Notes under the pieces: generated by a model
What the model was told of the DNA's origin: nothing
Databases searched by the model: none
What the model saw: the letters and a program-made list of their open reading frames with translations, nothing else
DNA from: Cytophagales bacterium
GTDB taxonomy: Bacteria > Bacteroidota > Bacteroidia > Cytophagales > Cyclobacteriaceae
Length of the DNA stretch: 64,000 nt
Assembly: GCA_017303795.1 (NCBI GenBank)
Contig: JAFLBR010000016.1
Span: 42,413-106,412 of the forward strand
Reading direction: 5' to 3'
Shown: piece by piece, positions 8,804-60,734 of the stretch
Layout of the letters: every line of letters starts with the position of its first letter
Numbering within the stretch: the first letter of the stretch is position 1
Program-made: the position numbers and the translations under genes

Positions 8804-8835
8804 AGGTTAACCGCAAAGACGCTGAGCCGCAAAGG
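8804..8835 (+). repeat. Degenerate 8-bp repeats after a stop codon
   Basis: Directly after the TGA ending at 8803 come four in-phase 8-bp units, among them cgcaaaga and cgcaaagg. Same behaviour as the 7-bp arrays elsewhere: the array starts at the stop codon. Confidence 0.55.
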
Positions 8836-8860
8836 ATCGAATGCTGTAATGATGGGACGT

Positions 8861-8955
8861 CTAAAGCAATTCTACCGTAACCTCCTTTGCCAAACCCATC
8901 GCGTTAAAGCGTAATACTAATTGCTGATTTTCTACGATTGAATCTGCGTGAGCAA
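8861..8955 (-). pseudogene. Remnant of the 3' end of the lipoprotein gene at 9875-10237
   Basis: 8870-8948 aligns without gaps to 9884-9962, the 3' end of the intact lipoprotein gene, with 73 of 79 bases identical. All six differences are silent third-position changes, so the peptide ADSIVENQQLVLRFNAMG and the following LAKEVTVE are kept. The copy then ends in its own TAG. Homology stops abruptly at 8949, toward the Fic gene. It is the tail of a diverged allele separated from the intact gene by fic. Confidence 0.85.
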
Positions 8956-8995
8956 ATCAAGAATTTCCACCATGGTTAAGTACTTAACTTGATTT
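8954..8995. terminator. Nested inverted repeats after fic
   Basis: AAATCAAG (8954-8961) and CTTGATTT (8988-8995) enclose a region ending in the perfect 14-bp palindrome GTTAAGTACTTAAC (8975-8988). It lies just past the Fic stop and could terminate that transcript. The AAGTACTT core recurs in the palindrome at 5534. Confidence 0.4.
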
Positions 8996-9020
8996 AGCAG
9001 GTAGATGGAGATTTCTATTT

Positions 9021-12168: not shown

Positions 12169-14049
12169 ATGGCTAAAGAAATGGAGTACAACGAATCCAG
12201 TATTCGTTCGCTTGATTGGCGTGAGCACATCCGGCTGCGTCCGGGTATGTACATTGGTAAGTTGGGCGATGGTTCCGCTAAGGACGATGGTATTTATGTG
12301 TTGGTGAAAGAGGTAATCGATAACTCTATTGATGAACACATGATGGGTTATGGAAAAGTGATTGAGGTTACCATTACCGAACAGAAAGTTACTGTGCGCG
12401 ATTATGGCCGCGGCATTCCGTTAGGCAAAGTGGTGGATGTAGTTTCTAAAATCAACACCGGTGCCAAATACGATTCCGGTGCTTTTCAAAAGTCGGTAGG
12501 GTTAAATGGTGTGGGTACCAAAGCAGTAAATGCACTGTCCAACTATTTTAAGGTACAGGCTTTTCGCGATGGTAAAACCAAAGTGGCTGAGTTTAAGAAA
12601 GGGGTACTGACCACCGATGCGAAAGAAACTAAAACCACCGATAAGAACGGAACCTATGTTGAGTTTGAACCGGATAATACCATGTTCAAGCATTATCATT
12701 TCATTCCGGAGTACCTGGATGATCTGATGTGGAACTACGCTTTCCTCAATGCGGGACTTACCATTAATTACAATGGCAGAAAGTTTTATTCCAAAGAAGG
12801 CTTGCTCGATTTATTGAAACAGAAGTCAGATGCAGAAGACATCCGCTACCCGATCATTCACTTTAAAGGCGATGATATAGAAGTTGCGCTTACTCACGGC
12901 AGTCAGTATGGTGAAGAATACTACTCGTTTGTAAATGGCCAGAATACCACACAAGGCGGCACACACTTAGCCGCTTTTCGCGAAGGTGTAGTGCGTGGAG
13001 TACGCGATTTTTACAAGAAAGATTTTGATGCAGCCGATATCCGCGCCAGCATTATTGCTTCTATTGCCGTACGAGTGCAAGAGCCCGTTTTCGAATCGCA
13101 GACTAAAACCAAACTGGGTTCGCTTAACATGGCACCCGATGGAGCAACGGTAAAAAATTTCGTGGGCGATTTCGTAGCCAAAGAATTAGAAATCTACCTG
13201 CATAAAAATTCGGCTGTAGCCGAGGCTATGCTGAAACGCATTCTGCAATCGGAACGCGAGCGCAAAGAAATTGCCGGTATTAAAAAACTGGCGAACGAAA
13301 GAGCCAAGAAAGCAAACCTGCATAATAAAAAACTACGCGACTGCCGGTTTCATTTCGATGATGAGAAAGGAGAGAAGGGTGCTGAGTCGATGATCTTTAT
13401 TACCGAGGGTGATTCTGCTTCGGGTTCTATTACCAAATCACGCAATGTAGAAACGCAGGCGGTGTTCAGCTTACGCGGAAAGCCATTGAACAGTTTTGGC
13501 CTCACCAAAAAAGTGGTTTACGAAAACGAAGAGTTTAACTTATTGCAGCACGCGCTCAATATAGAAGATGGCCTGGATGGCTTGCGTTATAATAAAGTGA
13601 TTGTAGCTACCGATGCCGATGTGGATGGTATGCACATTCGGTTATTGTTAATGACATTCTTCCTGCAATTCTTCCCCGACCTGGTAAAATCGGGGCATGT
13701 GTACATTCTGGAAACACCGTTGTTCCGCGTACGCAATAAAAAAGAAACCATCTATTGTTATAGCGAAGAAGAGAAGCAAGCAGCTGTAAGTAAGTTGGGT
13801 AGCAAACCAGAGATTACGCGCTTCAAAGGACTGGGAGAAATTTCGCCCGATGAATTTGGAACGTTTATAGGAGAGGATATTCGCCTGCAACCCGTTAACA
13901 TCGACAAAGAAAAACACCTTCAAAAAACACTTGAGTTCTACATGGGCAAAAACACACCCGATAGACAAGAGTTTATTATTGAAAATCTGCGCATTGAATT
14001 AGATGCCGTGGAGGCAAAGGCTGAGTTGGTGGAGAGTGAGGGGGAATAG
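12169..14049 (+). CDS. parE: DNA topoisomerase IV subunit B
   Basis: ATPase subunit of topoisomerase IV, which decatenates daughter chromosomes with ParC. GHKL ATPase domain: [37 protein letters not shown] and [14 protein letters not shown]. The transducer domain ends with the conserved QTKTKLG. The TOPRIM domain has [16 protein letters not shown] and [12 protein letters not shown], and the C-terminal segment has [13 protein letters not shown]. 626 aa is normal for ParE/GyrB without insertion. It is ParE rather than GyrB because it precedes parC, and a separate gyrB lies at 31.8 kb. Its stop codon directly abuts the heptamer repeat element. Confidence 0.96.
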
Positions 14050-14253
14050 GCGTTAGTAGTTAGTATTTAGTCCTTAGTCCTTAGTCCTTAGTATTGAGGA
14101 AGTAGCAATAAGAAGTTAGTAAGTGGTAATCAGTAAGAAGTTAACGGTAATCGGTTGGCAGTAATCAGTAGGCTGTAGTCCGGTATTATTTGTTAAGGGC
14201 CAAACAAATTGAGTAACCAGAAACAAGCAACCAGCAACAAGAACTAAGCAATG
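14050..14253 (+). repeat. Heptamer dyad element filling the parE-parC gap
   Basis: From the base after the parE stop, 19 consecutive 7-bp units run in phase to 14182; nearly all end in AG or GG (for example tccttag three times, taatcag twice). After a 29-bp spacer a right arm of six units from 14212 carries AC (agcaacc, agcaaca) and runs into the parC start codon. The arms are G/T-rich and A/C-rich respectively, giving loose dyad symmetry. See findings. Confidence 0.85.
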
Positions 14254-17127
14254 AGTAAGAAAAAAGTAAAGATTGTTAAAGACGAAAATGGCGAATCAAT
14301 CCACGAACTGGAGTCGCTGGATGGTTTGTATCAAAACTGGTTTTTGGATTATGCCTCGTATGTAATTCTGGAGCGGGCCGTGCCGCGCATTGAAGATGGC
14401 TTAAAACCAGTGCAGCGTAGAATTGCGCATTCATTAAAGGAGATGGACGATGGTCGTTTTAACAAAGTGGCCAACGTAATTGGTAGTACCATGCAATATC
14501 ACCCGCATGGCGATGCTGCCATTGGCGAAGCGATTGTAAACATCGGCCAGAAAGATTTATTGTTAGATACACAAGGTAACTGGGGCGATGTGCGCACAGG
14601 CGACAGCGCAGCGGCTCCACGTTATATAGAAGCACGCCTTTCCAAATTTGCGCTTGATGTAGTCTATAATGCACAAACTACAGAGTGGCAATTGAGTTAT
14701 GATGGCCGCAAGAAAGAACCCGTTACGCTGCCGGTAAAATTTCCGTTGTTGCTGGCGCAAGGGGTAGAAGGTATTGCCGTTGGTCTATCAACCAAAATTC
14801 TTCCGCACAACTTTGTAGAGTTAATCAAAGCTTCGATTGATGTACTGAAAGGCAAGAACCCTAAAATCTATCCTGACTTTTTAACGGGTGGTATTGCTGA
14901 TTTTACAGAGTACGATCAGGGCTTTCGTGGTGGTAAAATTAAAGTACGCGCCAAAATTGAAATCGTAGACAAGAAGACACTGGCCATCAAAGAAATTCCG
15001 TTCAGCACTACTACCAGTTCGCTGATGGATTCGATTGTGAAGGCGAGCGAGAAAGGTAAGATCAAAGTAAAACAGGTTGTTGATAACACCGCTAAAGATG
15101 TTGAGATTCAGGTGCACCTGCAATCGGGTATTTCGCCTGAAGTTGCGATAGATGCGCTGTATGCCTTTACGGATTGCGAGATTTCTATTTCACCTAATGC
15201 CTGCGTAATTGTGGAAGACAAGCCACAGTTTATGAAGGTAAACGACATTCTGAAATACAACACCGAACAAACTGTTCAGTTGTTGAAGCAGGAGTTGGAG
15301 ATCAGGAAGAATGAACTGATGGAGAAAATTCTCTTTTCTTCATTAGAAAAAATCTTCATCGAAAAACGCATTTACCGAACAATTGAAGAAATAGAAACAT
15401 TTGAAGCGGTAATTGAAACAGTTGATAAAGGTCTTAAGCCTTACAAAAAACAATTCTACCGCGAGATTACCCGCGATGATATTTTGCGTTTGCTCGAAAT
15501 CCGCATCAAGCGTATTTCCAAATACGATTCGTTTAAGGCCGATGAGTTGCTGAAAGATTTGGAGAATGAGTTGAAGCAAACATTACATCACCTTAAACAT
15601 CTTACCGACTACGCCATTGCCTATTACCAAAACCTGTTGGATAAATATGGTAAAGGCCGCGAACGCAAAACTGAAATCAAGAGTTTCCAGTCCGTAACGG
15701 CTACCGAAGTAATTGCCAACAATCAGAAACTATATGTAAACCGCGAAGATGGTTTTGTAGGGTGGGGCTTGCGCAAAGATGAATTCATTGCGGATTGTTC
15801 TGAACTGGACGACATCATCGTAATCCGTAAAGACGGCAAAGCGTTGGTAAGCCGCATTGGCGAACGTAAGTTTATGGGTAAAGATATTCTGCACATTGGC
15901 GTGTGGAAGAAAGGCGATGAGCGCATGGTGTACAACCTGATTTATAGCGATGGTAAAAGCGGCACCACATTCGCCAAGCGATTTAACATGCCCGCGATTA
16001 TTCGCGATAAAGAATATAACCTCGATCAAGGCAACCCGAACAGTAAAGTACATTACCTGAGCGCCAACCCGAATGGTGAAGCTGAAGTAGTGGAAGTGAA
16101 ACTGAGCCAGAGCAGCACCGCTCGCAAAAAGATTTTCGAGTTCGATTTTTCTGAACTGGAAATTAAAGGTCGTGGGGCGCGTGGTAACACCATTACCAAA
16201 TACCCCGTGCGCAAAGTTGATTTTAAAGAAGCGAAAGGTTCTACCTTAAGCGGATTGAAACTGTGGTTCGATCAGGCTAGTGGCCGGTTAAACAAAGACG
16301 AGCGCGGCAAGTATGTAAATAAGTTTGATGGCGATGATAAAATTCTGGCAGTTACAACCAGTGGTAATTATAAGATCACCAGCTTTGAACTCACCAATCG
16401 CTACGAGCCGGAGAAAACAATTCTGGTAGAGAAGTTTAATCCGAATAAAATAATCTCGGCTGTGTATTGGGATGGCGAGAGCAAACAACATTTTGTAAAA
16501 CGCTTTCTGATTGAGACCAACACATTCGATAAAGAGTTCAACTTTATTAGTGAAGGCATTGGTTCGCGGTTAGAGTTTGCAACCACCAGCGATACGCCTG
16601 AAGTTGAAATTGAATTGGTGAAGGGTAAGGGTAAGGATAAAGAAACCGAAGTAGTAAACCTGGAAGACCTGATAGATGTGAAAGGGTGGAAGTCGGTGGG
16701 CAACAGACTTTCGCAATACAAAGTAACGAAGGTACGGCCGCTGGAAGAGCCCGAAGACAGCGGGGCAGAGGAAGATGATGACGAAGCTGCAAAGGCGACC
16801 GGTACCGGAAAGGGTGGCGAGTCGCCAAAAAAAAAATCAGGCAACGATGAAAGCGATGAAGGGGAAACCTTCAACGAAAACTCAGAAGTCAGCGAGCCCA
16901 TCGTTGAAGACGATGGTCAAACAGCCCTCTTTGGCGAAAAAAAATCCCCCTACGCAGAAGCTTCGGGGGACAGGGAAAAGCCAAAAGGTAAAGTCAAGCC
17001 CAAAGAAGCAAAGCAAGCCGACCTCTTCGGGGAAGAAAAAAAAGAAGTAAAGAAAGAAACGGATGGGGGTGATGATAAGGAAGGCAAAACGTTTACTCCA
17101 GGTGATTCGATAGAGTTGGACTTGTGA
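14251..17127 (+). CDS. parC: DNA topoisomerase IV subunit A with charged C-terminal tail
   Basis: DNA-cleaving subunit of topoisomerase IV. The winged-helix region shows ERAVPRIEDGLKPVQRRI and YHPHGDAAIGEAIV. The active-site tyrosine is Tyr125 in AAAPRYIEARL. A tower and coiled-coil region follow, then a C-terminal region of beta-pinwheel type (about 490-790). Residues after about 800 are a low-complexity Lys/Glu tail not needed for catalysis. At 16945-16970 this tail carries a palindromic repeat that encodes SPYAEASGD. 958 aa is longer than E. coli ParC (752 aa), due mainly to the tail. The start codon lies inside the last repeat unit of the preceding element. Confidence 0.95.
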   Translation: MSKKKVKIVKDENGESIHELESLDGLYQNWFLDYASYVILERAVPRIEDGLKPVQRRIAHSLKEMDDGRFNKVANVIGSTMQYHPHGDAAIGEAIVNIGQKDLLLDTQGNWGDVRTGDSAAAPRYIEARLSKFALDVVYNAQTTEWQLSYDGRKKEPVTLPVKFPLLLAQGVEGIAVGLSTKILPHNFVELIKASIDVLKGKNPKIYPDFLTGGIADFTEYDQGFRGGKIKVRAKIEIVDKKTLAIKEIPFSTTTSSLMDSIVKASEKGKIKVKQVVDNTAKDVEIQVHLQSGISPEVAIDALYAFTDCEISISPNACVIVEDKPQFMKVNDILKYNTEQTVQLLKQELEIRKNELMEKILFSSLEKIFIEKRIYRTIEEIETFEAVIETVDKGLKPYKKQFYREITRDDILRLLEIRIKRISKYDSFKADELLKDLENELKQTLHHLKHLTDYAIAYYQNLLDKYGKGRERKTEIKSFQSVTATEVIANNQKLYVNREDGFVGWGLRKDEFIADCSELDDIIVIRKDGKALVSRIGERKFMGKDILHIGVWKKGDERMVYNLIYSDGKSGTTFAKRFNMPAIIRDKEYNLDQGNPNSKVHYLSANPNGEAEVVEVKLSQSSTARKKIFEFDFSELEIKGRGARGNTITKYPVRKVDFKEAKGSTLSGLKLWFDQASGRLNKDERGKYVNKFDGDDKILAVTTSGNYKITSFELTNRYEPEKTILVEKFNPNKIISAVYWDGESKQHFVKRFLIETNTFDKEFNFISEGIGSRLEFATTSDTPEVEIELVKGKGKDKETEVVNLEDLIDVKGWKSVGNRLSQYKVTKVRPLEEPEDSGAEEDDDEAAKATGTGKGGESPKKKSGNDESDEGETFNENSEVSEPIVEDDGQTALFGEKKSPYAEASGDREKPKGKVKPKEAKQADLFGEEKKEVKKETDGGDDKEGKTFTPGDSIELDL
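16945..16970. repeat. Palindromic repeat inside the parC tail
   Basis: TCCCCC (16945-16950) and GGGGGA (16965-16970) flank a 14-bp middle that contains the palindrome GAAGCTTC. It is read through in frame as SPYAEASGD. The composition differs from the surrounding Lys/Glu tail, suggesting an interspersed palindrome tolerated in a disordered region. Confidence 0.55.
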
Positions 17128-22564: not shown

Positions 22565-24601
22565 ATGAAAAAATTAGTGATTGTCCTCTTCCTGTTTTCC
22601 ATAACAGCCTCAGCCCAAACGCTGGAGCAGTTTATGAGTCACCCCATCGAGAGCAACTTTGCCGCCTCAGCCGATGGAAAGAACATTGCCTGGGTACTTA
22701 ACGATCATGGCAAGCGCAACATCGTAGTAAAAACTGGTATTGATCTGCCGCGCCTGCTTACCGATTATCAGCAAGACGATGGTCAGGAAATTTCGCAGCT
22801 TACATTTTCACCCAATGGCACCAAATTGTTGTATGTGCGCGGTGGTGGTGGCAATCGCAACGGACAAAATCCAAATCCTGCCAGTCTGCCGGAAGGCACA
22901 GAGCAGGCTATCTATTACAAAGAGATTGCTTCTAAAAGTGCACCAGCAAAAATTACGGTCGGTACAAGTCCGGTGTTTTATAAGGATGGCGTGAAATTTT
23001 TATTCAGCAGAGGTGGCCAGATTTATGAATCAGGCATGGATATAAATGTAGTGCCGAAGTTATTGTTCAGTGCGCGCGGCCACAATCACAGTCCACGTTT
23101 TTCGCCCGATGGTAATGAAGTGTTGTTTATCAGCGATCGGGGCGATCATAGTTTTGTAGGCGTGTATAGTTTAACGCGAAGAGTTATCCGCTGGATTGCC
23201 CCCGATGTAAGCACCGATGAATTTGCCGTGTGGTCGCCCGATGGAAAACAAATTGCTTTCATTCGCACACCCGGCACCAAAATAGGTGAGTTGAGTAATC
23301 TTACTGGCGGAACAAAATTTTCGGTGTGGGTGGCCGATGCACAAAGTGGTATGGCCAAACCCATTTGGAAATCGCCAGCCGATGATGGTGGCTTTGTACA
23401 CAATTATGTAAACACTCCGCTGGCATGGTTGGCCTCGGGTCGCATTTTATTTTTCTCTGAACATACGGGTTGGAATCATATTTACTCCATCACCGAAACC
23501 GGCAGCGACTTAAAAGACATTACACCGGGCGATGGTGAAGTGGAAAGTTTTGTTGCCGATGCCATCGGTAGGTTTATTTACTTCGATGGCAATCGTGAAG
23601 ATATAAATCGCAGGCACATCTGGAAAGCAGATGTAACAACCGGAACGCCAACAGCCGTAACCACAGGCGAAGGCATTGAAATGTACCCGGCCCTTGCGGG
23701 AAATGTGTTGTATGCATTTCGATCTACGGCTAATACTTCTAAAACTTTAGTGCGTATTGATGAAGTTAGCAAAGCCACAGCACCTGTGTATACACAAAAG
23801 TTAACTACGTTTTCAAGCGCAGTATTTGTAAAGCCTGAAGCGGTGTTGTTGAAAGCAACTGATGGTACAACGGTACATGCGCAGTTGTTTATCAATCGCA
23901 ACAGCAGCGGCAAGCGACCGGGCATTGTGTTTATGCACGGTGGCCCCATACGACAAATGTTGTTGGGTTTTCACTACAGCGATTATTACATCCACGCGTA
24001 TGCGTTTAATCAATACCTCGCCAGTCAGGGGTATGCTGTGTTGTCGGTAAATTTTCGGTCGGGCACGGGTTATGGTCGCGATTTTCGCAGAGCAAAAAAC
24101 CAAGGACCGCGTGGTGCGAATGAATATCAGGATGTAGTGGCCGCAGCCAAACATCTGCAAACATTGGCTGAAGTAGATGCGAATCAAATTGGATTGTGGG
24201 GCGGATCGTACGGTGGGTATTTAACGGCCATGGGTTTGGTGCGCAATCCGGAAATTTTTAAAGCCGGTGTAGATGTGCATGGTGTACACGATTGGTCGTT
24301 CAACGGTCAGGATGCAACCAACTCGTGGGGTTTGCAACGGGCCGAAGCCGAGCTCGCTTTAAAGTCATCGCCTGTTGCAGACTTATCGAAGTGGACTGCA
24401 CCGGTTTTGTTTGTGCATGGCGATGACGATCGTAATGTAAACTTTCAGCAGAGTATTGACCTTGCCGAAAAACTTCGCGATAAAAATGTGCCGGTAGAAG
24501 TGCTGGTGCTACCCGATGAAGTACACGGCTTTTTGCGTTATGATAGCTGGAAGCAGGTGTTTGAAAGAGCGAAAGATTTTTTTGATAGAAGATTAAAATA
24601 G
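22565..24601 (+). CDS. S9-family prolyl oligopeptidase-type peptidase
   Basis: Exported serine peptidase of 678 aa. The signal peptide (MKKLVIVLFLFSITASAQ) is followed by a beta-propeller formed of WD40-like PD40 repeats (SPNGTKLLYVRGGG, SPDGNEVLFISDRG, SPDGKQIAFIRTPG). The C-terminal alpha/beta hydrolase domain has the catalytic Ser in WGGSYGGY (about residue 547), Asp in HGDDDRNV (about 620) and His in DEVHGFLR (about 652). Probably degrades peptides in the periplasm. Its stop codon is the first base of a heptamer array leading to the sirtuin gene. Confidence 0.93.
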   Translation: MKKLVIVLFLFSITASAQTLEQFMSHPIESNFAASADGKNIAWVLNDHGKRNIVVKTGIDLPRLLTDYQQDDGQEISQLTFSPNGTKLLYVRGGGGNRNGQNPNPASLPEGTEQAIYYKEIASKSAPAKITVGTSPVFYKDGVKFLFSRGGQIYESGMDINVVPKLLFSARGHNHSPRFSPDGNEVLFISDRGDHSFVGVYSLTRRVIRWIAPDVSTDEFAVWSPDGKQIAFIRTPGTKIGELSNLTGGTKFSVWVADAQSGMAKPIWKSPADDGGFVHNYVNTPLAWLASGRILFFSEHTGWNHIYSITETGSDLKDITPGDGEVESFVADAIGRFIYFDGNREDINRRHIWKADVTTGTPTAVTTGEGIEMYPALAGNVLYAFRSTANTSKTLVRIDEVSKATAPVYTQKLTTFSSAVFVKPEAVLLKATDGTTVHAQLFINRNSSGKRPGIVFMHGGPIRQMLLGFHYSDYYIHAYAFNQYLASQGYAVLSVNFRSGTGYGRDFRRAKNQGPRGANEYQDVVAAAKHLQTLAEVDANQIGLWGGSYGGYLTAMGLVRNPEIFKAGVDVHGVHDWSFNGQDATNSWGLQRAEAELALKSSPVADLSKWTAPVLFVHGDDDRNVNFQQSIDLAEKLRDKNVPVEVLVLPDEVHGFLRYDSWKQVFERAKDFFDRRLK

Positions 24602-24656
24602 TTACCAGTTCCCAGTTACTGGTTACCGGAAACAGGCAACTGGCAACGTTAAGCAG
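24601..24656 (+). repeat. Heptamer array filling the S9 peptidase-sirtuin gap
   Basis: Eight 7-bp units in strict phase begin with the last base of the TAG stop and end 2 bp before the next ATG. The first four are GTT-type (gttacca, gttactg), the next are AAC-type (gcaactg), giving a small dyad. Confidence 0.8.
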
Positions 24657-24658
24657 TT

Positions 24659-25342: not shown

Positions 25343-25493
25343 ATGGTTACCAGTTGCAAGTTACCGGTAAGCTTGACTACAATTCGGTGCAGATCATGGA
25401 CTATATAGCCCTGACTACCCGATTACCAAAGCCTGATTAACAAATCAAAGCCCAAAATACTGGCAACAAGGAACAGGTAACCGGTAACTTTAC
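25343..25493. repeat. Heptamer dyad element between convergent genes
   Basis: Begins at the base after the sirtuin stop with five left-arm units carrying GTT/GTA (25343-25377). The right arm from 25413 is in 7-bp phase and ends in units ggcaaca, aggaaca, ggtaacc, ggtaact, overlapping the stop codon of the DUF1080 gene. The 35-bp middle shows no clear period. Confidence 0.75.
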
Positions 25494-27662: not shown

Positions 27663-28023
27663 ATATGCCATCATAAGGGTTGTGCCCAAAGTGGAGCGCG
27701 AAGAATTCGTGAACGTGGGTGTTATACTCTATTGTGGCCCATTAAAATTTCTGAAAACAAAAATTGAAATCAATACAACACGCATTACCGCATTTTGCAA
27801 AGACATTGAGTTGCCCGAAGTACAACAATACATTCAAACGTTCGAGCAGATAAGTGCCGGAGGCAAGGGCAGTGGTCCTATTGGCGAACTTCCCATGGCC
27901 GAACGCTTTCGTTGGCTTACCGCTACACGCAGTTCTATCATTCAAACTTCAAAAGTACATCCCGGCATTACCGATAATCCGCAGCAAGTGTTGGAGCGAT
28001 TGTTTGAGCAACATGTGTTATAG
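27646..28023 (+). CDS. DUF3037 domain protein
   Basis: A 125-aa protein beginning MPNVFEYAIIRVVPKVEREEF, then VNVGVILYC, the hallmark of DUF3037. Start chosen at ATG 27646, which overlaps the HipA-like kinase gene by 17 bp; the longer frame upstream lacks family similarity. DUF3037 and HipA-like kinases form a conserved gene pair in many bacteria. Function unknown; a partner or substrate of the kinase is a reasonable inference. The TAG stop is the first triplet of a heptamer element. Confidence 0.88.
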   Translation: MPNVFEYAIIRVVPKVEREEFVNVGVILYCGPLKFLKTKIEINTTRITAFCKDIELPEVQQYIQTFEQISAGGKGSGPIGELPMAERFRWLTATRSSIIQTSKVHPGITDNPQQVLERLFEQHVL

Positions 28024-28194
28024 TTTCCGGTTACCAGTTACCTGTTGCTAGTTTCTCGCTTCTGGTTTATAGTAACTGTTAATACACGGCAAAACAAAAC
28101 TAACCGACCACTGATTACCGAATACTGATTACAGGATCACCAATTAGCAAAACCAAACGACTGGAAACCGGAAACTGGTAACTGGTCACAGAAT
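28021..28194. repeat. Heptamer dyad element between convergent genes
   Basis: Nine left-arm units in phase from the TAG stop of the DUF3037 gene (tagtttc, cggttac, cagttac) to 28083. A right arm of about twelve units from 28110, with one 1-nt slip at 28138, ends in actggaa, accggaa, actggta, actggtc and reaches the opposite stop codon at 28194. The arms are roughly complementary and could form a long imperfect hairpin. Confidence 0.82.
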
Positions 28195-30292: not shown

Positions 30293-30313
30293 CCCCAATA
30301 CCCAATACCTAAT
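30293..30313. repeat. Three heptamers filling the PPK2-LRR gap
   Basis: Units ccccaat, acccaat, acctaat occupy the gap between two convergent genes and overlap the stop codon of the LRR gene. The same unit, ACCCAAT, reappears in the large array at 36.1 kb. Confidence 0.65.
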
Positions 30314-31682
30314 TCTCTAACGCTTCTTCCACATGCACCACCACTGCTTTGTTACGCAGTGTACGGATGAGGGTTGGTATCTGGTTGCGACTGAGTTCGT
30401 CCCACGGGTTATTAACCATTACCAGAATTTTTAATTGGGGTAGGTTATCCAAACCAGTAGGTAGTTCGCTGATTTGATTACCGGAGATGTCGAGATTTTC
30501 CAGTAGCACAAAATTTGTTAGAGAATCAGGCGTTTGTAGCAAGCGGTTATTATTCGCGCGCAGTACTCTCAGGTTGTGTAATTGATTTACAGTAACTGGT
30601 AATTCCAATAATTTATTATCCGATAAATAAAGTTCCTGCAAGTTGTTCAGGTTGCCCAAAGTCATTGGCAAACTCAAAATTTTGTTGTGCGATAAGTATA
30701 AGATTTCCAGTTTTTTTAATTGGGAAACTTGTTCGGTTACGCGTTCAATCTCATTGTGATATAAATCTATCTCGCGCAAAGCGGGTAACTTATAAACTCC
30801 TTCGGGTATGGCTGTAAGCTTGTTTTGATAAAAAGAAAGTTGTTCCAGCTTCTCTAAGTTGGCAATAGCCGGATCAACCGATTTAATGGCATTGTAATTC
30901 AACGTAAGTTGTTTCAGGCTGCTCAGGTTGCGGATAGATTCAGGAATAGCTTCAATCTTATTGCGGGTTAATTCAAGTTTTTCAAGTTGAGGCAGTTCAG
31001 GTATTTCCAATTTGGTAATAGCGTTGTTATTCAGAATAAGTTGTTTCAGGTTTTTGTTTTTAGTTAATCCTGTTGGGAAAGCGGTAATAGTATTGGCAGC
31101 CAGATCCAATCGTTCTAATGCAGCCAAAGGTGCGAACGATCGCGGCAACGCGGGTAAATCGCTACGCATTACCAACGTGCGCACGGTTTTGTTTTTACTA
31201 AGGGTAAGGCGGCCTTTAGGTTTGTTATTCAACAGGTATAATCCCGTTAGGGCCGGAAGCTTTTTCAACTGCTTTACATTTTTAATGCGGGTATTTACCA
31301 ACTCAAGTTCTTGCAGGTTTTTACAGGCATAAACCTCGGCTGGTAGTTTTTTAGGTTTCCAGTTAGTAATACTCAAAAGTTTTACCTGCGATTTATCGGT
31401 CATTTTCTGAAGACTATCAATTGTTACAAATCCGGCTGAGGATTTATACTGCCTGCGATAGCTTGTAATGCGAGTTCGCATTTGCCCGAATTCTTTAATC
31501 AGACTATCGGGTAAAATGTCTTTTTGCTCCATAGCCTTTCTAATGGCTTGATTGATCTGTACATAGCGCAGCGAGTCGCCCGCAGTGCTGAACACAGGTT
31601 CTTCCGAGGCCGAAAACACCCTTTGTGCGCTAGCCGAAATGCTAACTGTTAGTAAGGCCAAAATCACCACTATATTTTTCAT
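30309..31682 (-). CDS. Exported leucine-rich repeat protein
   Basis: A 457-aa protein with signal peptide (MKNIVVILALLTVSISASAQ) and about fourteen leucine-rich repeats of the short bacterial type. Examples are LERLDLAANTITAFPTGL, LKQLTLNYNAIKSVDP, LEILYLSHNKILSLPMTL and LQELYLSDNKLLELPVTV. These form a solenoid typical of protein-binding surface or periplasmic proteins. No membrane anchor is apparent after the signal peptide. It is divergent from gyrB and convergent with PPK2. The binding partner is unknown. Confidence 0.88.
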   Translation of the reverse strand: MKNIVVILALLTVSISASAQRVFSASEEPVFSTAGDSLRYVQINQAIRKAMEQKDILPDSLIKEFGQMRTRITSYRRQYKSSAGFVTIDSLQKMTDKSQVKLLSITNWKPKKLPAEVYACKNLQELELVNTRIKNVKQLKKLPALTGLYLLNNKPKGRLTLSKNKTVRTLVMRSDLPALPRSFAPLAALERLDLAANTITAFPTGLTKNKNLKQLILNNNAITKLEIPELPQLEKLELTRNKIEAIPESIRNLSSLKQLTLNYNAIKSVDPAIANLEKLEQLSFYQNKLTAIPEGVYKLPALREIDLYHNEIERVTEQVSQLKKLEILYLSHNKILSLPMTLGNLNNLQELYLSDNKLLELPVTVNQLHNLRVLRANNNRLLQTPDSLTNFVLLENLDISGNQISELPTGLDNLPQLKILVMVNNPWDELSRNQIPTLIRTLRNKAVVVHVEEALEN

Positions 31683-37184: not shown

Positions 37185-37265
37185 ATCTTTAAGGGTCTAT
37201 TAGGTGGTGTAAATTTACGCTATCCTTATTTTATTATTATTACCTAATTATGTTTCTTTGCATCA

Positions 37266-38438: not shown

Positions 38439-38453
38439 TTTAAACTCGGTAAA
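38410..38453 (+). repeat. Left heptamer arm at the end of metH1
   Basis: tagtc-type units with starts spaced 8, 7 and 7 bp run through the metH1 stop codon into the 16-bp gap before the four-helix-bundle gene. Orientation matches left arms (AGT) elsewhere. Confidence 0.6.
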
Positions 38454-38454
38454 C

Positions 38455-38808: not shown

Positions 38809-38810
38809 AT

Positions 38811-41501
38811 ATGAGCCAACCATCGACCATTGACCATCGACCATTATTGCTGAGTGGCTTAGAAGCTGTGCAGATAACCAGAAGTTCGAATTTTGTCAAC
38901 ATCGGTGAGCGAACTAACGTTACCGGTTCGGCCAAATTCTTAAAACTCATTAAAGAAGATAAGTTTGATGAAGCACTGGAGGTAGCCCTCGACCAGGTGC
39001 GGGGAGGCGCGCAGGTAATTGATGTGAACATGGATGAAGGTATGCTCGACTCAAAAGCAGCCATGGTCAAGTATCTCAACCTGATGGCCTCTGAACCTGA
39101 AATTGCTGCCATCCCGGTTATGGTCGATTCATCCAAGTGGGAAGTGATCGAAGCCGGATTAAAATGTTTGCAAGGCAAAGGCATCGTAAACTCCATCAGT
39201 ATGAAAGGTGGAGTAGAAGAATTTATCCGGCAGGCGAAGTTAGTGAAACGCTATGGTGCGGCTGCAGTAGTAATGGCCTTTGATGAAGTAGGGCAGGCCG
39301 ATACCTATCAACGCAGAATTGACATTTGTAAACGCGCATATGACATTCTGGTAAACGAGGTTAAGTTTCCGGCTGAAGATATTATTTTCGATCCCAACAT
39401 CTTTCCGGTGGCAACCGGTATTGATGAACATCGAAACTATGCATTGGATTTTTTCAAAGCCACCAAATGGATTCGTGAGAATCTGCCGGGAGCGCATGTG
39501 AGTGGAGGAGTTAGTAATGTTTCGTTCAGCTTCCGTGGAAACCAAAAAGTACGTGAAGCCATGCACTCGGCTTTTCTGTACCATGCTATCCAACATGGAA
39601 TGGACATGGGCATTGTAAACCCAACCATGCTGGAAGTGTATGATGAGATTCCCAAAGATTTATTAGAACGTGTTGAAGATGTATTGCTCAACAGGCGCGA
39701 TGACGCGACTGAACGCTTGCTGGAATTTGCTGAAACCGTAAAAGGATCGGCTAAGAAAAAAGAACAAGACGATGAATGGCGTCAAGGCACAATCGAAGAA
39801 CGCATTACGCATTCCCTTGTAAAAGGTATTATTGATTTTATCGATGCCGACACCGAAGAGGCTCGGCAAAAGTATGGCAAACCCTTGCATGTAATCGAAG
39901 GGCCGCTCATGCGTGGAATGAATGTGGTGGGCGATTTGTTTGGTGCTGGTAAAATGTTTTTGCCGCAAGTAGTGAAGAGCGCACGTGTTATGAAAAAATC
40001 CGTGGCATATTTAACTCCGTACCTTGAAGAAGAAAAACGATTAAGTGGTAATGCAGGGCAGGCTGCTGCCAAGATTTTATTAGCTACCGTGAAAGGCGAT
40101 GTACACGACATCGGTAAAAACATTGTGGGCGTTGTGTTGGCTTGTAATAATTATGATGTGGTGGATCTGGGTGTGATGGTTCCACCCGAAAAAATTATTG
40201 AAGCGGCCAAGCGCGAAAAGGTGGATGTAGTTGGATTAAGTGGGTTGATTACACCTTCCTTGGATGAGATGGTGTATGTAGCCAAAGAAATGCAGCGCGA
40301 GAAAATGGACTTGCCGTTGTTGATTGGTGGGGCAACTACTTCACGTATTCACACGGCTGTAAAAATTGATCCGGTTTATGACGGCCCGGTGGTATATGTA
40401 TTGGATGCCTCACGTTCAGTACCGGTTGCGAGTGAGTTGATTAGCAAGAATACTCGTAAAAGTTTTCAGGATAAAATGAAAGCTGAATATCAGGCGTTGC
40501 GTGTAGATCATGAGAATCGTAAGCAAACGAAGAACTATATTCCGTTAGTGGAAGCACGTGCTAACGAAACAAAAATTGATTGGGCAAGTACCATATTCAC
40601 AAAGCCTCAGTTTATTGGAAGAAAAGAGTTTGTAAAATATCCGCTGGAGGAAATTCGCAAGTACATCGACTGGACACCGTTCTTCCAGACGTGGATGTTG
40701 GCCGGTCGTTTTCCGGTAATATTAAAAGATGAAGTAGTAGGGGCAGAGGCAACCAAGTTATATAACGATGCCAACAAGATGCTCGATGAAATTATCAAGA
40801 GTCGGGCGTTGCAAGCCAATGGGGTAGTGGCCTTTTATCCGGCCAAGCGTGAAGGCGATGATGTGAATTTGTATCGTAAAGATCAAGATGAATCGTTTGC
40901 CACATTTCACTTCCTGCGGCAGCAGAATAAGAAGGCACAAAACCTGCCGAACTTTTGCCTGGCGGATTTCATTGCACCGGATAAGGGAAAGGACTACTTC
41001 GGCATGTTTGCCGTTACAGCAGGCATCGGGTTAGAAAAACTCGTTGAGAAACACAAAGCCAATCAGGACGACTATTCGGAGATTATGGCGAAAGCTTTGG
41101 CCGATCGTTTAGCCGAAGCCTTTGCTGAGTGTTTACATAAACGTGTGCGCAAAGAATTATGGGGCTATGCAAAAAATGAAACCTTAACCGAAGAAGAGTT
41201 GATTGATGAAAAGTATGAAGGCATACGGCCAGCACCGGGTTATCCAGCTTGCCCGGATCATACCGAAAAGAAATTGTTGTTCGAATTACTGGAAGGCAAC
41301 AAGGTAGGAATTACGTTAACGGAATCGTATGCCATGTATCCTGGAGCAGCCGTCAGCGGATTTTATTTCTCTAATCCAAACTCGAAATATTTTGGTTTGG
41401 GTAAGATTGAGAAAGATCAGGTAGTAGATTATGCGAAGCGTAAAAATATGAGTGTGGAAGAAATTGAGAAGTGGTTAGCACCTAATTTATCTTATGTATA
41501 A
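38811..41501 (+). CDS. metH: Methionine synthase, folate-, cobalamin- and SAM-binding modules
   Basis: Second part of the split methionine synthase, 896 aa. Pterin-binding domain: [17 protein letters not shown] and [13 protein letters not shown]. Cobalamin cap and Rossmann domains: the cobalt-ligating DxHxxG motif is in [16 protein letters not shown], then [11 protein letters not shown] and [15 protein letters not shown]. The reactivation domain binds [25 protein letters not shown] and [16 protein letters not shown]. The first 15 or so residues ([14 protein letters not shown]) are encoded by heptamer repeats and precede the conserved fold. Together with 37428-38438 it makes a complete MetH. 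Confidence 0.96.
38819..38846 (+). repeat. Right heptamer arm in the metH2 5' coding end
   Basis: Four in-phase units (accatcg, accattg, accatcg, accatta) lie inside the first codons of metH2, in the AC-type orientation of right arms. Confidence 0.75.
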
Positions 41502-41640
41502 TGAATTTGAAAATTAGTGAATTTGAAAATTTGAAAATGGGGTTTGAGTGTTATCAAGAAATGAGTTCATTTTTTAAATTGTCGAATTAATAAATTTTCA
41601 AATTAACGAATTTTTAAATTTTCAAATTGACTAATGAAAG
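41502..41640. repeat. Octamer dyad element between metH2 and metF
   Basis: Starts at the base after the metH2 stop: 8-bp units tgaatttg, aaaattag, aaaatttg in phase to 41541. The right arm from 41585 has units aattttca (twice), aattaacg, aattttta and aattgact in 8-bp phase. The final unit contains the metF ATG (41634). Left and right units are reverse complements in core (TTGAAAAT / ATTTTCAA). Confidence 0.82.
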
Positions 41641-48281: not shown

Positions 48282-48300
48282 AGTTTTGAAGATTAATATT

Positions 48301-48398
48301 TAGTCCTGAGTCTTGAGTAATTAGTCCTGAGTAATTAGTCCTGAGTCTTTAGTTACTAAGGACTCAGGACTAATGACTATTTACTATTTACTATTTAC
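48301..48398. repeat. Heptamer dyad element between scoA and scoB
   Basis: Fourteen adjacent 7-bp units in perfect phase: left units tagtcct, gagtctt, gagtaat; right units taaggac, tcaggac, taatgac, then tatttac three times. Left and right halves are reverse complements in core (AGTCCTGAGT / ACTCAGGACT). The last units overlap the scoA stop codon and its final codons. Confidence 0.87.
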
Positions 48399-49083
48399 TT
48401 ACTGTCCGTTGCTCAATTCTTTTCTCATAATTCTTCCCTTGAAATATTCTTTGAACATAAATTCCCGGAGTGTGGATTTGATTAGGATCTAATGCACCCA
48501 ACGGAACTAGTTCTTCTACTTCGGCAATGGTAATCTTTCCGGCTGCGGCCATCATCGGGTTAAAGTTGCGGGCAGTGCCTTTGTAAATCAGGTTTCCGGC
48601 AGTATCACCTCTCCACGCTTTTACAATTGCAAAATCTGCGCGAAGCCAGTGTTCTAATAAATATTTTTTCCCTTCAAACTCACGCACTTCTTTACCAGTT
48701 GCTACTTCCGTTCCAACTCCTGCCGGTGTAAAGAATGCTGGAATACCGGCACCGCCAGCACGCACCCGCTCGGCTAATGTTCCTTGCGGGATAAGTTCTA
48801 CTTCTAATTCTCCAGATAATAGTTGTCGCTCAAACTCGGCATTTTCACCCACATACGATGAAATCATTTTTTTTACTTGACGGGTTTTTAACAGCAAGCC
48901 GATCCCAAAATCATCAACACCCGCATTATTCGAAATACAGGTAAGACCTTTGGTTCCTTTTTTTAGAATAGCTGAAATACAATTTTCAGGAATGCCACTT
49001 AATCCAAATCCGCCAAGCATAAGCGTAGCATTTTCAAAAACATCTGCTACGGCCTCATCGGGTCCGGCAACTACTTTGTTCAT
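48391..49083 (-). CDS. scoA: 3-oxoacid CoA-transferase subunit A
   Basis: Alpha subunit of the succinyl-CoA:3-ketoacid CoA-transferase. Start at [12 protein letters not shown] (49083); three further codons upstream are possible. The family glycine loop is [18 protein letters not shown]; later blocks are [53 protein letters not shown] and [11 protein letters not shown]. 230 aa is normal. The final codons, QRTVSK, run into heptamer repeats. Forms a complex with the B subunit downstream. Confidence 0.94.
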
Positions 49084-57995: not shown

Positions 57996-58093
57996 GCGGC
58001 TACTTACTGTTAGTTTGTTTTTAAGTGCTGCAAAAATCATAAAAATATTTTGCAATCCCCGAACCCAATTTGCTTCTTGCATGAAATAAATCG

Positions 58094-58174
58094 TTGCGCG
58101 TGTTACAACACACTCTTTTCTCTTCACACATCATCTCAACTACCATTGAGATTACCACAACGATTACGGGGTAG
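58094..58174 (+). CDS. thrL: Thr/Ile-rich leader peptide of the thr operon
   Basis: A short frame upstream of thrA ends HIISTTIEITTTITG and a TAG at 58172-58174. The tail of 13 residues (IISTTIEITTTIT) holds six Thr and four Ile, the same theme as E. coli ThrL (MKRISTTITTTITITTG). Possible starts are TTG 58094 or GTG 58100; there is no in-frame ATG. Regulation by ribosome stalling on threonine and isoleucine codons is inferred. No strong terminator hairpin is seen before thrA, only an A/T-rich one (58235-58252, CTGAAAA / TTTTCAG), so the read-out may be non-classical. Confidence 0.75.
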   Translation: MRVLQHTLFSSHIISTTIEITTTITG

Positions 58175-58266
58175 CGCCCTACATATTACACAGAACTCCC
58201 GACATACCTTTTCTCATTAATTAAAATTCAAAACCTGAAAATATTTTTTCAGTTGTAATCTCTGCT

Positions 58267-60720
58267 ATGAAAGTTTTAAAGTTTGGTGGCTCCTCAGTAG
58301 GGAAGCCAGAACGAATCCGTTCGGTAATAGAAATTGTTAAACCCTATCTGAAAGATAAACCCGCACTTGTATTCTCGGCATTTGGGGGCGTAACCGATTC
58401 ACTTATCGCGCTAAGCACGGCAGCATTGGCTGGCAGAAGCGAATACAAAGATGAACTAAAACAATTAGAGACCCGCCACCTCGATGCAGTGCGCGAGTTG
58501 ATCGGCATTCAAAAACAAAGCAGCATTATTGCGCAGGTAAAATTTACCTTCAACGAATTAGAAGATGTGTTGCACGGTGTGTTTCTGGTAAAGGAAAGAA
58601 CACCGCGCACGCTGGATTACATTATGAGTTTTGGCGAGCGACTTTCGGCCTACATTATTGCTGAGGCTATGAAAGATCAAGGGATAGAAGCGGAGTTTCT
58701 GGATGCCCGCACAGTAGTGCGCACCGATAATACCTTTGGGTATGCACGCATTGATTTCGAAAAGACGAACGTGTTGATTCAAAACCATTTTAAGACGCAA
58801 TCTAACGTTCAGGTAATTACCGGCTTTATTGGGTCGTCACCTTCCGGTGAAACTACTACCATTGGCAGAAGTGGTTCGGATTATACTGCCGCAATTTTTG
58901 CCGGTGCATTAAAAGCAACCGACCTCGAAATCTGGACCGATGTAGATGGCATGATGACAGCCGATCCACGCAAAGTGAAGAAAGCATTTACGGTAAAAGA
59001 AATGACTTACGAAGAAGCGATGGAACTCTCGCACTTTGGTGCGAAGGTAATTTTTCCGGCTACCATGCAACCCGCTTTATTTAATCGTATTCCTATCTGG
59101 ATTAAGAATACATTCAACCCTTCATTTGAAGGTACTGTAATCAGCGAGAACTCTGGCGCGAAGCATCTGATTATAAAAGGAATTTCTTCCATGGATAAAA
59201 TCAGTTTGCTTAGCGTGCAAGGCAGCGGACTGGTAGGGGTAGTGGGTGTGTCGATGCGGTTGTTCGGTACACTGGCGAAAGAAAGTATAAGTGTTATTTT
59301 AATTAGTCAGGCTTCATCTGAGCATTCAATCTGCTTTGCTGTAGAGAGCAGTAAGGCAACACAAGCCAAATACGCCATCGAAAAAGAATTTCAATATGAA
59401 ATCCGCGGTCGCGAAATGGATGAAGTGAAAGTGGAAGACAGTCTTGCCATTGTAGCTATTGTGGGCGAGAATATGAAGCACAATCCCGGCACCAGTGGAA
59501 GGATGTTTAATGCACTGGGAAAAAGTGGTATTAATATTAACGCGATTGCACAAGGTTCTTCTGAGTTGAATATCTCTGCCGTGATTCATCAACAGGATAT
59601 CGCGAAAGCATTAAACGTATTGCATGAAGCCTTCTTCCTGTCGGATAGAAAAATACTGAATGTGTTTTTAGTGGGCACCGGACTTATTGGAAAATCATTG
59701 CTGGCTATGATGCAAAAACAGTTTAACCAGTTATCCAAGCAAAACCATCTTGAGTTGCACGTAGTAGGTATTGCAAACAGCAAGAAGATGTTGTTTAATG
59801 AAGATGGTTTGCAGTTAGCGGAAGCTGTGGCTCAGATGGCTGATGCTGGTGAAGCTATGAATCTGAATAGCTTTATGGGTACTATGATGAGCATGAATTT
59901 ATCGAACAGTATTTTTGTGGATTGTACTTCGAGTGAAGAAGTAACAGAACATTATGAAGCTATACTTTCGTCTAACATTTCAATTGTTACGCCAAATAAA
60001 AAAGCTAACTCTGGTCCATATGAAAAGTATCAGGTGTTAAAACAATCGGCACAAAAGCGCGGTGTAAAATTTTTATACGAGACCAACGTAGGAGCGGGGT
60101 TGCCCGTAATCAATACCTTAAACGATTTACTTGTTAGTGGCGATACAGTGCTTGGAATTGAAGCCGTATTAAGTGGCACGCTGAATTATATCTTCAGTTC
60201 GTTCAAGCCGGGCGATAAATTCAGCGATGTGGTTAAAGAAGCAAAAGCAAAAGGTTATACCGAGCCCGATCCGCGCGATGATCTAAACGGAATGGATGTA
60301 GCCCGAAAAATTTTAATTCTTTCGCGTGAAGCCGGACTTGCCTTAGAGTTAAGCGATATAAAAGTGGAAAACCTTGTACCTGAAGATTGTCGCGGTGAGA
60401 TGGCTGTTGAAAAATTCTTTGAGCAACTGGCAACACACAACACATATTTTGAAAAGCTTGCACAAGATGCTGCTAACCGAAACGAAAAGTTACGCTATAT
60501 GGCGGTGTTGAAAGATGGCAAGACCAGTATTAAACTCGGATCGGTTAATGCGCAACATCCATTCTACTCGCTATCGGGTAGCGATAATATTATTTTGCTT
60601 ACGACCGAAAGATATAACGAACGCCCAATGGTAATTCGTGGGCCGGGTGCAGGTGCTGAAGTAACCGCTGCCGGAGTGTTTGCAGATATTATTCGTATTG
60701 GTAATTATTCAAATACTTAA
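58267..60720 (+). CDS. thrA: Bifunctional aspartokinase/homoserine dehydrogenase
   Basis: Catalyses the first and third steps of the threonine/methionine branch. 817 aa. Aspartokinase: MKVLKFGGSSVGKPERI, SFGERLSAYIIAEAM, GRSGSDYTAAIFAGALKA and WTDVDGMMTADPR. Two ACT regions lie at about 310-460 (SVQGSGLVGVVGVSMRLF; IVAIVGENMKHNPGTSGRMF). Homoserine dehydrogenase from about 465: NVFLVGTGLIGKSLLAMM, TPNKKANSGPYEKYQ, FLYETNVGAGLPVINTL and GTLNYIFSSF. Likely feedback-inhibited by threonine through the ACT domains. First structural gene of thrABC, behind the leader peptide. Confidence 0.97.
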   Translation: MKVLKFGGSSVGKPERIRSVIEIVKPYLKDKPALVFSAFGGVTDSLIALSTAALAGRSEYKDELKQLETRHLDAVRELIGIQKQSSIIAQVKFTFNELEDVLHGVFLVKERTPRTLDYIMSFGERLSAYIIAEAMKDQGIEAEFLDARTVVRTDNTFGYARIDFEKTNVLIQNHFKTQSNVQVITGFIGSSPSGETTTIGRSGSDYTAAIFAGALKATDLEIWTDVDGMMTADPRKVKKAFTVKEMTYEEAMELSHFGAKVIFPATMQPALFNRIPIWIKNTFNPSFEGTVISENSGAKHLIIKGISSMDKISLLSVQGSGLVGVVGVSMRLFGTLAKESISVILISQASSEHSICFAVESSKATQAKYAIEKEFQYEIRGREMDEVKVEDSLAIVAIVGENMKHNPGTSGRMFNALGKSGININAIAQGSSELNISAVIHQQDIAKALNVLHEAFFLSDRKILNVFLVGTGLIGKSLLAMMQKQFNQLSKQNHLELHVVGIANSKKMLFNEDGLQLAEAVAQMADAGEAMNLNSFMGTMMSMNLSNSIFVDCTSSEEVTEHYEAILSSNISIVTPNKKANSGPYEKYQVLKQSAQKRGVKFLYETNVGAGLPVINTLNDLLVSGDTVLGIEAVLSGTLNYIFSSFKPGDKFSDVVKEAKAKGYTEPDPRDDLNGMDVARKILILSREAGLALELSDIKVENLVPEDCRGEMAVEKFFEQLATHNTYFEKLAQDAANRNEKLRYMAVLKDGKTSIKLGSVNAQHPFYSLSGSDNIILLTTERYNERPMVIRGPGAGAEVTAAGVFADIIRIGNYSNT

Positions 60721-60734
60721 ATCGTAATTCGTAA
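60721..60734 (+). repeat. Two heptamers filling the thrA-thrB gap
   Basis: atcgtaa and ttcgtaa occupy the first 14 of the 16 bp between the thrA stop and the thrB ATG. Confidence 0.5.

Follow-up and report, generated by a model that had tools for sequence, protein, structure and literature searches.

The window, a stretch of 64,000 nucleotides from contig JAFLBR010000016.1 of a Cytophagales bacterium, contains a small gene between two repeat arrays at 38409..38845 on the + strand. The 5′ arm (38409..38445), of the GT/AG type, includes the C-terminus and stop codon of a homocysteine methyltransferase gene, and the 3′ arm (38811..38845), made of ACC ATC G units, codes for the MetH N-terminus. 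The gene between them (38455..38808), which occupies the predicted hairpin loop, encodes a protein of 117 residues that matches the PF05635 (23S_rRNA_IVP) profile with 115.8 bits against a curated cut-off of 33.8 (Pfam 1.3e-33). PF05635 is the "23S rRNA intervening sequence protein", a four-helix-bundle family, here called IVP. The IVP gene is the sole gene between the arms, with no transposase there, and its neighbours are mmuM-like and metH genes, i.e. the locus is a protein-gene junction. The IVP gene is present in the relative G009 and absent in the relative G018.

Repeat arrays of the window and their periodicity

TRF finds 7-bp arrays in the window at 14053, 24600, 28017/28160, 35961, 36041-36236, 38409, 38819 and 48302-48399; it places the 8-bp arrays at 41504-41635. 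The features that follow are unstranded. A gene-less pair of heptad arrays (14047..14274), with AGTCCTT words on the left and ACCAGCAAC words on the right, separates the genes of two topoisomerase subunits (GyrB/ParE-like and GyrA/ParC-like). Its left part is nearest to the words of the IVP locus L021 (cosine 0.61), which does not hold for the right part (0.22). Another gene-less pair, at the ppk1/ppx junction (35959..36240), contains a 20-copy CAATACT expansion; the array measures about 60 bp in G009 and there is none in G018. Near-perfect 20-copy runs are found at 36056-36199 in the window and also at locus L221 of G009. The fold test gives no significant hairpin at 14050, nor at ppk-ppx on the + strand.

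Other gene-less arrays are predicted to fold. The hairpin with GTTACCA words at 24600..24658 (z = -2.3) has a longer version in G009. Two hairpins lie between convergent genes, one with GGTTACC words at 25343..25489 (z = -2.8) and one with GGTTACC and GATTACC words at 28023..28191 (z = -3.1). The arms of the former were delimited by lag score on the right (25459-25488, with a cosine of 0.63 to the IVP locus L023) and by eye on the left (about 25343-25368). The TTAGTCC words at 48293..48399, between the genes of two CoA-transferase subunits, form a hairpin with z = -5.2; they have a cosine of 0.80 to L021, and the array is rebuilt in both G009 and G018. A hairpin of the 8-bp class, with AATTTGAA units, occupies the metH/MTHFR gene junction (41504..41635; z = -4.4) and is retained in both relatives. 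A remnant CCCAATA array (30294..30315) has longer, different versions in G009 and G018. Several of the relatives' array versions fold weakly, with z between -2.1 and +1.4 for 7 of the 11 folded.

At a score of at least 14, 446 kb of the source genome contain 13 lag-7 arrays versus 1 and 0 in two shuffles, 4 lag-8 arrays versus 0 and 0, and 10 lag-14 arrays versus 0 and 0. G018 has 5 lag-7 arrays and G009 has 9, versus 0 in the shuffle. In each of these three genomes, intergenic DNA has a higher lag-7 match than its shuffle (z = 7.4, 3.3 and 5.2). Lag 6 is also raised in the three genomes (z = 4.1, 5.1 and 2.4) and exceeds lag 7 in G018, and lag 21 is likewise raised in intergenic DNA. The coding lag-7 match is lower (0.25), the shuffle comparison covering intergenic DNA only.

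The excess over shuffles that the earlier note predicted for lags 7 and 8 is seen in the array counts, accompanied by raised lags 6 and 21. By TRF, lag score and comparison with relatives, most of the 7-bp sites it named are arrays, as is the 8-bp site at 41502; those at 30293 and 60721 are weak, the latter having 2.7 copies and not being seen in G018. The 8-bp array proposed at 8804 was rejected, with no TRF array and no hairpin (z = 0.7). The "strict phase" attributed to the units was overstated, as phase breaks and mixed words are visible by eye, for example at 14050.

IVP genes and their arms across genomes

Heptad arms flank all four IVP genes found in the source genome. In a genus sample of 33 of roughly 120 IVP places, which retains three loci without a usable ORF (L072, L087 and L093), a lag-7 array is present on 26/33 left and 22/33 right flanks, compared to 0-5/33 for other lags. 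The association extends over many phyla: among the closest 80 of 552 GTDB IVP loci, not a random sample, 69 have a lag-7 array and 52 have one on both sides, and 11 have none at the threshold. The corresponding counts for control genes are 27/81 and 8/81, the former because these genomes are rich in arrays. Arms are also present at 13 of 16 plasmid loci, drawn from 38 IVP-bearing plasmid records and including a near-identical pair (L245 and L246). One IVP query against phage records gave no match. The family occurs in 88 of the 109 sampled genomes of the source genome's class. Stretches of IVP-rich genomes contain 26 lag-7 arrays in 328 kb, versus 7 in 300 kb for IVP-free genomes (19 of 20 counted, L311 being all N). 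IVP is under purifying selection, with dN/dS values of 0.08, 0.24 and 0.16 in three pairs; a fourth pair yielded no dS.

IVP genes lie between co-directional genes at 66 of the 80 GTDB loci (66/72 where both neighbours are known), compared to 712/1299 control genes, and at 60 of 62 testable loci the 5′ array begins between -30 and +15 relative to the upstream stop codon. At IVP loci, 5′ arms keep AG in 69/105 arrays and GT in 32/105, and 3′ arms have CT in 63/108 and AC in 34/108. The two arms are reverse complements, with a cosine of 0.42 within a locus versus 0.09 to other loci, and five complete IVP elements fold with z from -2.8 to -9.1 and paired ends. The repeat words follow the IVP clade (r = 0.39, 0/2000 permutations). 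These arm cosines and this correlation are based on 110 of 113 loci, L072, L087 and L093 being excluded. The link also holds beside non-homologous neighbours (r = 0.28, 0/2000 permutations; 76/80 loci), and for cyanobacterial and other words the correlation with protein similarity is weak (r = 0.14).

In cyanobacterial plasmids one junction occurs both filled and empty, as judged by visual comparison, supplemented for groups B and C1 by an exact prefix/suffix match. An exact target duplication, the 5-bp GTAAT, is found in only one group (B). In group C1 a TTCTA duplication is seen by eye and needs a one-base indel (strict test overlap -1), and the flanks of group D are 87% identical. A search for clean target duplications in groups A, C2 and E gave no clear case. 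At a junction that is occupied in L236/L237, L250 has a gene-less array of similar words. Candidate chromosomal empty sites in G018 and G009 were rejected, the sequences being too diverged. One junction shared by the genomes G013 and G024 carries a different IVP and different words in each; the stretches compared there reveal an IVP swap, and an empty site was not found in them.

Stretches of six genomes contain 63 gene-less lag-7 arrays, of which 59 lie at gene junctions and 4 within genes or at a stretch edge. Only 27/63 match the words of a resident IVP better than a worldwide sample (p < 0.05), and 25/63 match them beyond other IVPs of the genus. For the gene-less arrays of G009 and G020, IVPs of other genomes match better than resident ones.

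Proposed interpretation as small mobile elements

We consider it probable that the arrays are the arms of IVS-like elements, mobile and only about 0.4-0.5 kb in size, and that the gene-less arrays are derivatives of these. In a complete element, the 5′ arm would be built of degenerate units, 7 bp and sometimes 8 bp long, that share an AG/GT core; an IVP gene of about 117 aa would follow, and then a reverse-complement 3′ arm. The element would be located where an operon gene ends in its stop codon, oriented with transcription. In the mRNA, pairing of the arms would give a long hairpin whose loop contains the IVP gene. Such pairing would bring the upstream stop and the downstream start next to each other, so that the host operon would be little disturbed. 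Tandem units with one common core could pair in many registers, and gain or loss of units by slippage would therefore spare the hairpin, which presumably forms in vivo. Because each clade has its own words, partly on gene-less copies elsewhere too, IVP appears to recognise its arms, as RNA or DNA, and may thereby help to maintain or spread them, possibly acting in trans on gene-less copies.

We know of no catalytic site in IVP, which is therefore unlikely to be the sole mobiliser. A tentative extension is that each clade of this tiny, non-enzymatic protein reads a degenerate heptad code, with a common AG core and clade-specific positions, and that a borrowed enzyme, for example a reverse transcriptase acting on excised hairpin RNA, spreads the element and its gene-less copies into operon stop codons. 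If this were true, the heptad repeats of diverse bacteria would be accounted for by a protein-programmed system, and the orphan IVP/S23 family would confer specificity on mobile elements of a new class. Heptameric repeats and the IVP/S23 family are separate long-standing bacterial puzzles that such a link would join, and it gives the family a testable function. The element may be a low-cost operon parasite hidden by its looping out of the mRNA, with a 7-nt recognition code possibly legible from sequence alone.

The layout of dyad arms with one dinucleotide per unit, the filling of gene junctions and the rapid turnover reported in the earlier note all stand, the last in that the same junctions carry rebuilt versions in relatives. 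The roles it proposed miss what appear to be IVP-element arms or their gene-less derivatives, and nothing in the data points to one of them, an end-extension repair enzyme. Another role, host-kept bidirectional terminators or stabilisers of mRNA 3′ ends, would fit the stable hairpins at several sites and the enrichment of arrays in convergent junctions (22/59 placed arrays versus 182/1291 junctions). Yet 31 of the 59 separate tandem genes, some within operons (48282, cas6-cas4), and arrays are gained and lost at the same junction, which makes this reading improbable. Bidirectional termination is unlikely to be their principal function, given that arrays sit between tandem genes, such as those of the CoA-transferase subunits at 48282; the co-directional setting of the IVP genes points the same way.

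IVP might instead be a host-useful regulator, with the arms as operator sites on its own mRNA for autoregulation and no mobile element involved. Purifying selection, a sense orientation amid co-directional neighbours and the presence of three IVPs within one fatty-acid operon agree with this, but presence and absence among related plasmids, the different clade at one shared site and the many unrelated operons make it quite unlikely. That heptameric repeats merely grow through slippage over a polymerase footprint, an idea cited in the accessible text of PMC4692102, with IVP hitch-hiking in loose intergenic DNA, is very unlikely. Slippage itself is evident in the near-perfect 20-copy runs, but alone it predicts neither reverse-complement arms around one gene family nor the word-clade link, the filled and empty junctions and the fewer arrays in IVP-free genomes.

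Relation to known systems

The mobile-element reading invites comparison with the 23S rRNA IVS, which lies within a 23S rRNA helix and is excised by RNase III. In Coxiella and Leptospira, too, its complementary ends form a hairpin and S23p/IVP is encoded in the loop, and the elements described here have the same complementary terminal arms around an S23p/IVP ORF. Unlike it, they occupy protein-gene junctions, occur several per genome, have clade-specific heptad words and are accompanied by gene-less copies. A search with three short motifs supported a 23S rRNA location for none of the examined loci; the three that matched a motif (L084, L117 and L163) had no Rfam LSU match and were rejected as rRNA IVSs.

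REP/RAYT elements carry a Y1 HUH-type transposase (RAYT). They and REPINs, the subject of PMC3116915 and PMC2817692, likewise combine a gene between inverted repeats with dispersed extragenic gene-less palindromes. In REP/RAYT the gene-less palindromes share sequence with those beside the gene; the corresponding comparison here is mixed, with 27/63 gene-less arrays matching resident IVP words beyond the worldwide sample and G009 and G020 counting against it. The window element differs in its four-helix-bundle protein and its tandem 7-bp units, compared to the fixed palindrome of REP, and has no RAYT or other transposase between its arms. In diversity-generating retroelements, RT and TR/VR accompany Avd. 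The fold of Avd is a four-helix bundle homologous to that of IVP, according to the part of PMC10053308 available.

Tandem 7-bp units in intergenic DNA, as found here, also define the STRR/SSR heptamers, which likewise occur in gene junctions and vary in length in the available portions of two papers: TAACTGA in Beggiatoaceae, cyanobacteria and Bacteroidetes (PMC4679880) and GGGNATC in Xanthomonas and Nostoc (PMC4692102). Since heptameric repeats were already reported in Bacteroidota, the repeats by themselves are not new. Neither paper mentions S23 or a four-helix protein, and the available portions recognise no dyad, word-clade link or element. GGGAATC heptads are reported (PMC4692102) for the species of XCC0516, an IVP with a solved structure (2GSC). 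The IVP/S23 family receives single mentions in PMC11270868, PMC10910872, PMC11637426, PMC5787105, PMC5524665 and others. Among openly available papers, no title or abstract found connects it with heptads, although earlier notice of the link is possible; the exception is the Coxiella IVS. There, the available text of PMC4990558 places three tandem heptamers (GACAGAT) ahead of the S23p start.

IVP genes between two heptad arms

A gene for a 117-aa protein of the PF05635 family (23S_rRNA_IVP, hereafter IVP; E 1.3e-33) is bracketed by the arrays at 38409 and 38819, and each of the four PF05635 genes found in the host genome has a GT/AG-type array on one side and an AC/CT-type array on the other. 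The element thus delimited consists of a 5' arm, the IVP gene and a reverse-complement 3' arm, with each array built of its own 7-bp words. In a genus sample of 33 IVP loci, out of roughly 120 places, a lag-7 array (self-match at a 7-base offset, score 7 or more) is present in the left flank of 26 and the right flank of 22, and other lags from 4 to 12 are found in 0 to 5 of the 33. The closest 80 of 552 GTDB IVP loci, from named genomes, include Parcubacteria, Nomurabacteria, Omnitrophica, Anaerolineae and others besides Bacteroidota. Lag-7 arrays occur on at least one side of 69 of these 80 loci and on both sides of 52, compared to 27 and 8 of 81 control genes from the same loci; lag 8 appears on both sides in only 3 of the 80. 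On plasmids, 38 records, mostly cyanobacterial, match one IVP query; among 16 sampled, two of them near-identical, lag-7 arrays are found in 13, on both sides in 11, and lag 8 on both sides in 3. No phage record matched the single IVP query used. Of 109 genomes sampled from the class, 88 have PF05635. Three IVP pairs show purifying selection on the gene (dN/dS 0.08, 0.24 and 0.16); a fourth pair gave no dS.

A SAM riboswitch (RF00162) at 37264-37377 (+) precedes the methionine genes interrupted by the IVP element. At 38410-38438 and 38811-38845 the arrays code for the C-terminal end of one enzyme and the N-terminal end of MetH, respectively, and the element ends therefore extend host proteins. 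A fatty-acid oxidation cluster of the relative G018 (L178, G018:C36:116604-122773) has an IVP gene at each of three consecutive junctions, with different words in each, and other genomes of the genus repeatedly have two IVP genes spaced by about 1.6-1.7 kb. CRISPR-Cas clusters of cyanobacterial plasmids (L234, L241, L244) hold IVP genes at cas6/cas4 and cas10/cmr3 junctions.

Insertion sites and complementary arms

The element is present or absent among related cyanobacterial plasmids. In group B, the junction is filled in one plasmid (L246) and empty in two (L254, L255), with flanks about 98% identical; the 5-bp sequence GTAAT, which contains the host stop codon, is duplicated exactly. In a further member, L253, a 5' arm precedes what by eye appears to be a truncated IVP start. 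Group C1 has two filled loci (L256, L257), three empty at that junction (L243, L258, L259) and one with another short ORF (L260); TTCTA stands on either side of the element, and the strict test fails by a one-base difference (overlap -1). TACTAAG stands on either side in group D (87% flanks). Comparison of filled and empty junctions in groups A, C2 and E gave no clear duplication, and in group A one plasmid (L250) has a gene-less array with similar words at the same junction. IVP lies between two co-directional genes in 66 of 80 loci (66 of the 72 with both neighbours known); for control genes taken from stretches of the genus and class, the figure is 712 of 1299 (p=1e-11). In 60 of 62 testable loci, the beginning of the 5' array falls between -30 and +15 relative to the upstream stop codon.

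The 5' arm is much closer to the reverse complement of its partner 3' arm (5-mer cosine 0.42) than to those of other loci (0.09), the partner ranking top among 90 in 34 cases and within the top five in 60. When five whole elements were folded as RNA (z -2.8 to -9.1), their ends paired and the gene lay in the loop. Among gene-less arrays, those at 24600, 25343, 28024, 41502 and 48282 folded with z of -2.3 to -5.2 and the Nostoc array L250 with -7.4; 14050, 30293, 60718 and ppk-ppx (+ strand) gave no comparable hairpin signal. Eleven junctions of relatives gave z of -2.5 to -5.9 in four cases and -2.1 to +1.4 in seven. One conserved dinucleotide per unit, as the earlier note had described, is borne out across 125 loci, with AG/GT in 5' arms and CT/AC in 3' arms: AG is kept in 69 of 105 5' arm arrays vs 6 of 108 3' arm arrays, and CT in 63 of 108 3' arm arrays vs 9 of 105 5' arm arrays, GT and AC being second commonest in the respective arms.

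The anatomy of the element, its statistical links and its presence or absence at given junctions are direct observations. In the mRNA the arms probably pair with the IVP gene looped out, which would bring the upstream stop next to the downstream start; with the stop left beside the start, insertion would be cheap. Units with a shared core would pair in any register, so that slippage would be harmless, and the IVP probably recognizes its own arms. Nucleic-acid binding by IVP fits, without being proved by, the five chains in each of the solved structures 2GSC and 2RLD, the median pI of 8.5 (below 7 in 31 of 123) and the described kinship with the retroelement protein Avd (PMC10053308).

The account of the Coxiella 23S rRNA IVS in PMC4990558 includes heptamers before an S23p gene, in vitro excision by RNase III and an early conjecture of mobility. 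The heptamer papers PMC4679880 and PMC4692102 make no mention of S23 or four-helix proteins, and our literature search, which covered papers naming the family in passing only in part, found no IVP-heptad link outside the Coxiella IVS. The present elements share the plan of the 23S rRNA IVS, but not its defining location. REP/RAYT systems have a similar mode of working, but with a transposase.

Repeat words, IVP clades and gene-less arrays

Word similarity climbs with IVP protein identity (r=0.39, 0/2000 permutations, 106 loci). Words differ between the IVPs of a single genome (11 pairs, mean similarity 0.075; 0.14 for the two pairs at 50% identity or more), and IVPs at least 50% identical across genus genomes have words more alike (64 pairs, mean 0.273). 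The correlation is 0.47 for pairs with homologous neighbours and 0.28 for pairs without a homologous neighbour ORF within 1.8 kb (2296 pairs, 0/2000 permutations), of which seven above 70% identity have a mean word similarity of 0.61. Between cyanobacteria and the rest the link is weak (r=0.14). The genomes G013 and G024 share one junction, with 93-95% identity to each side of it, at which they hold different IVPs accompanied by different words, AAAGTTG and AAAGCTT.

The words of 63 gene-less arrays, from stretches of six genomes, match resident IVPs with a mean of 0.355 vs 0.181 for a worldwide sample (27 of 63 at p<0.05) and 0.278 for other genus IVPs (25 of 63). A trans link between IVPs and gene-less arrays is only partly supported, because G009 (19 arrays; resident 0.238, genus 0.268) and G020 (one array; 0.126, 0.170) favour other genus IVPs. 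Of the 63, 59 fall in junctions, which are tandem for 31, convergent for 22 and divergent for 6; the background is 921, 182 and 188 junctions. Arrays are clearly enriched at convergent junctions (p about 1e-5), and a depletion at divergent ones shows when reckoned by intergenic base (p=0.009) but not by junction (p=0.46). Sampled at one stretch per genome, 20 IVP-rich genomes yielded 26 lag-7 arrays in 328 kb, spread over 9 genomes (shuffles 2), part of them AT-rich low-complexity DNA by eye, vs 7 in 300 kb of 19 IVP-free genomes (3 genomes; shuffles 4). The six of these seven that were inspected are AT-rich, four coming from one genome; one, L310, has words similar to the AATTTTGA class. Lags 6 and 9 at a lower threshold did not separate IVP-rich from IVP-free genomes.

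Periodic arrays and their turnover

Most sites for which the earlier note had proposed 7-bp arrays bear TRF 7-bp arrays, and its 8-bp class is represented by TRF arrays at 41504-41635. The 8-bp array proposed at 8804 is not confirmed, with no TRF array and no significant hairpin on folding there. That at 60721 corresponds to a TRF array at 60718, of only 2.7 copies, and is not seen in G018. The window covers positions 42413-106412 of one contig (C8) of the host genome, which totals 4.87 Mb in 24 contigs. The proposed excess of lag periodicity over shuffled sequence is found in 446 kb of the host genome (self-match score 14 or more, two shuffles): 13 lag-7 arrays vs 1 and 0, 4 lag-8 arrays vs 0 and 0, and 10 lag-14 arrays vs 0 and 0. 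G018 has 5 lag-7 arrays in 175 kb and G009 has 9 in 220 kb, with none in shuffles. The intergenic lag-7 match rate exceeds the shuffle in three genomes (z=7.4, 3.3 and 5.2), as do lag 6 (4.1, 5.1, 2.4) and lag 21 (5.4, 2.3, 5.5); the coding lag-7 rate is below the intergenic one as a raw rate, the shuffle comparison referring to intergenic DNA only.

G009 and G018 are syntenic with the window (aligned blocks 65-84% identical). At junctions 48282, 41502, 28024, 25343, 24602 and 14050, one or both have arrays with altered words and lengths, the dyad mostly retained by eye. The ppk1-ppx junction measures about 290 bp in the window and some 60 bp in G009, with nothing array-like in G018. Since junction arrays differ or are missing in these relatives, they turn over quickly, the outcome the earlier note had sought from its own comparison.

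Near-perfect heptamer runs of about 20 copies at 36056-36199 (CAATACT) and L221:3898-4043 (CATCTTA) look like recent slippage expansions. ORFs 8297-8803 and 28194-28691, adjoining the 8804 and 28024 junctions, gave no hit to Pfam at E 0.001. A large ORF contains 2.3 copies of a perfect 12-bp tandem repeat, ATCGCCTACGTT, at 56316-56343.
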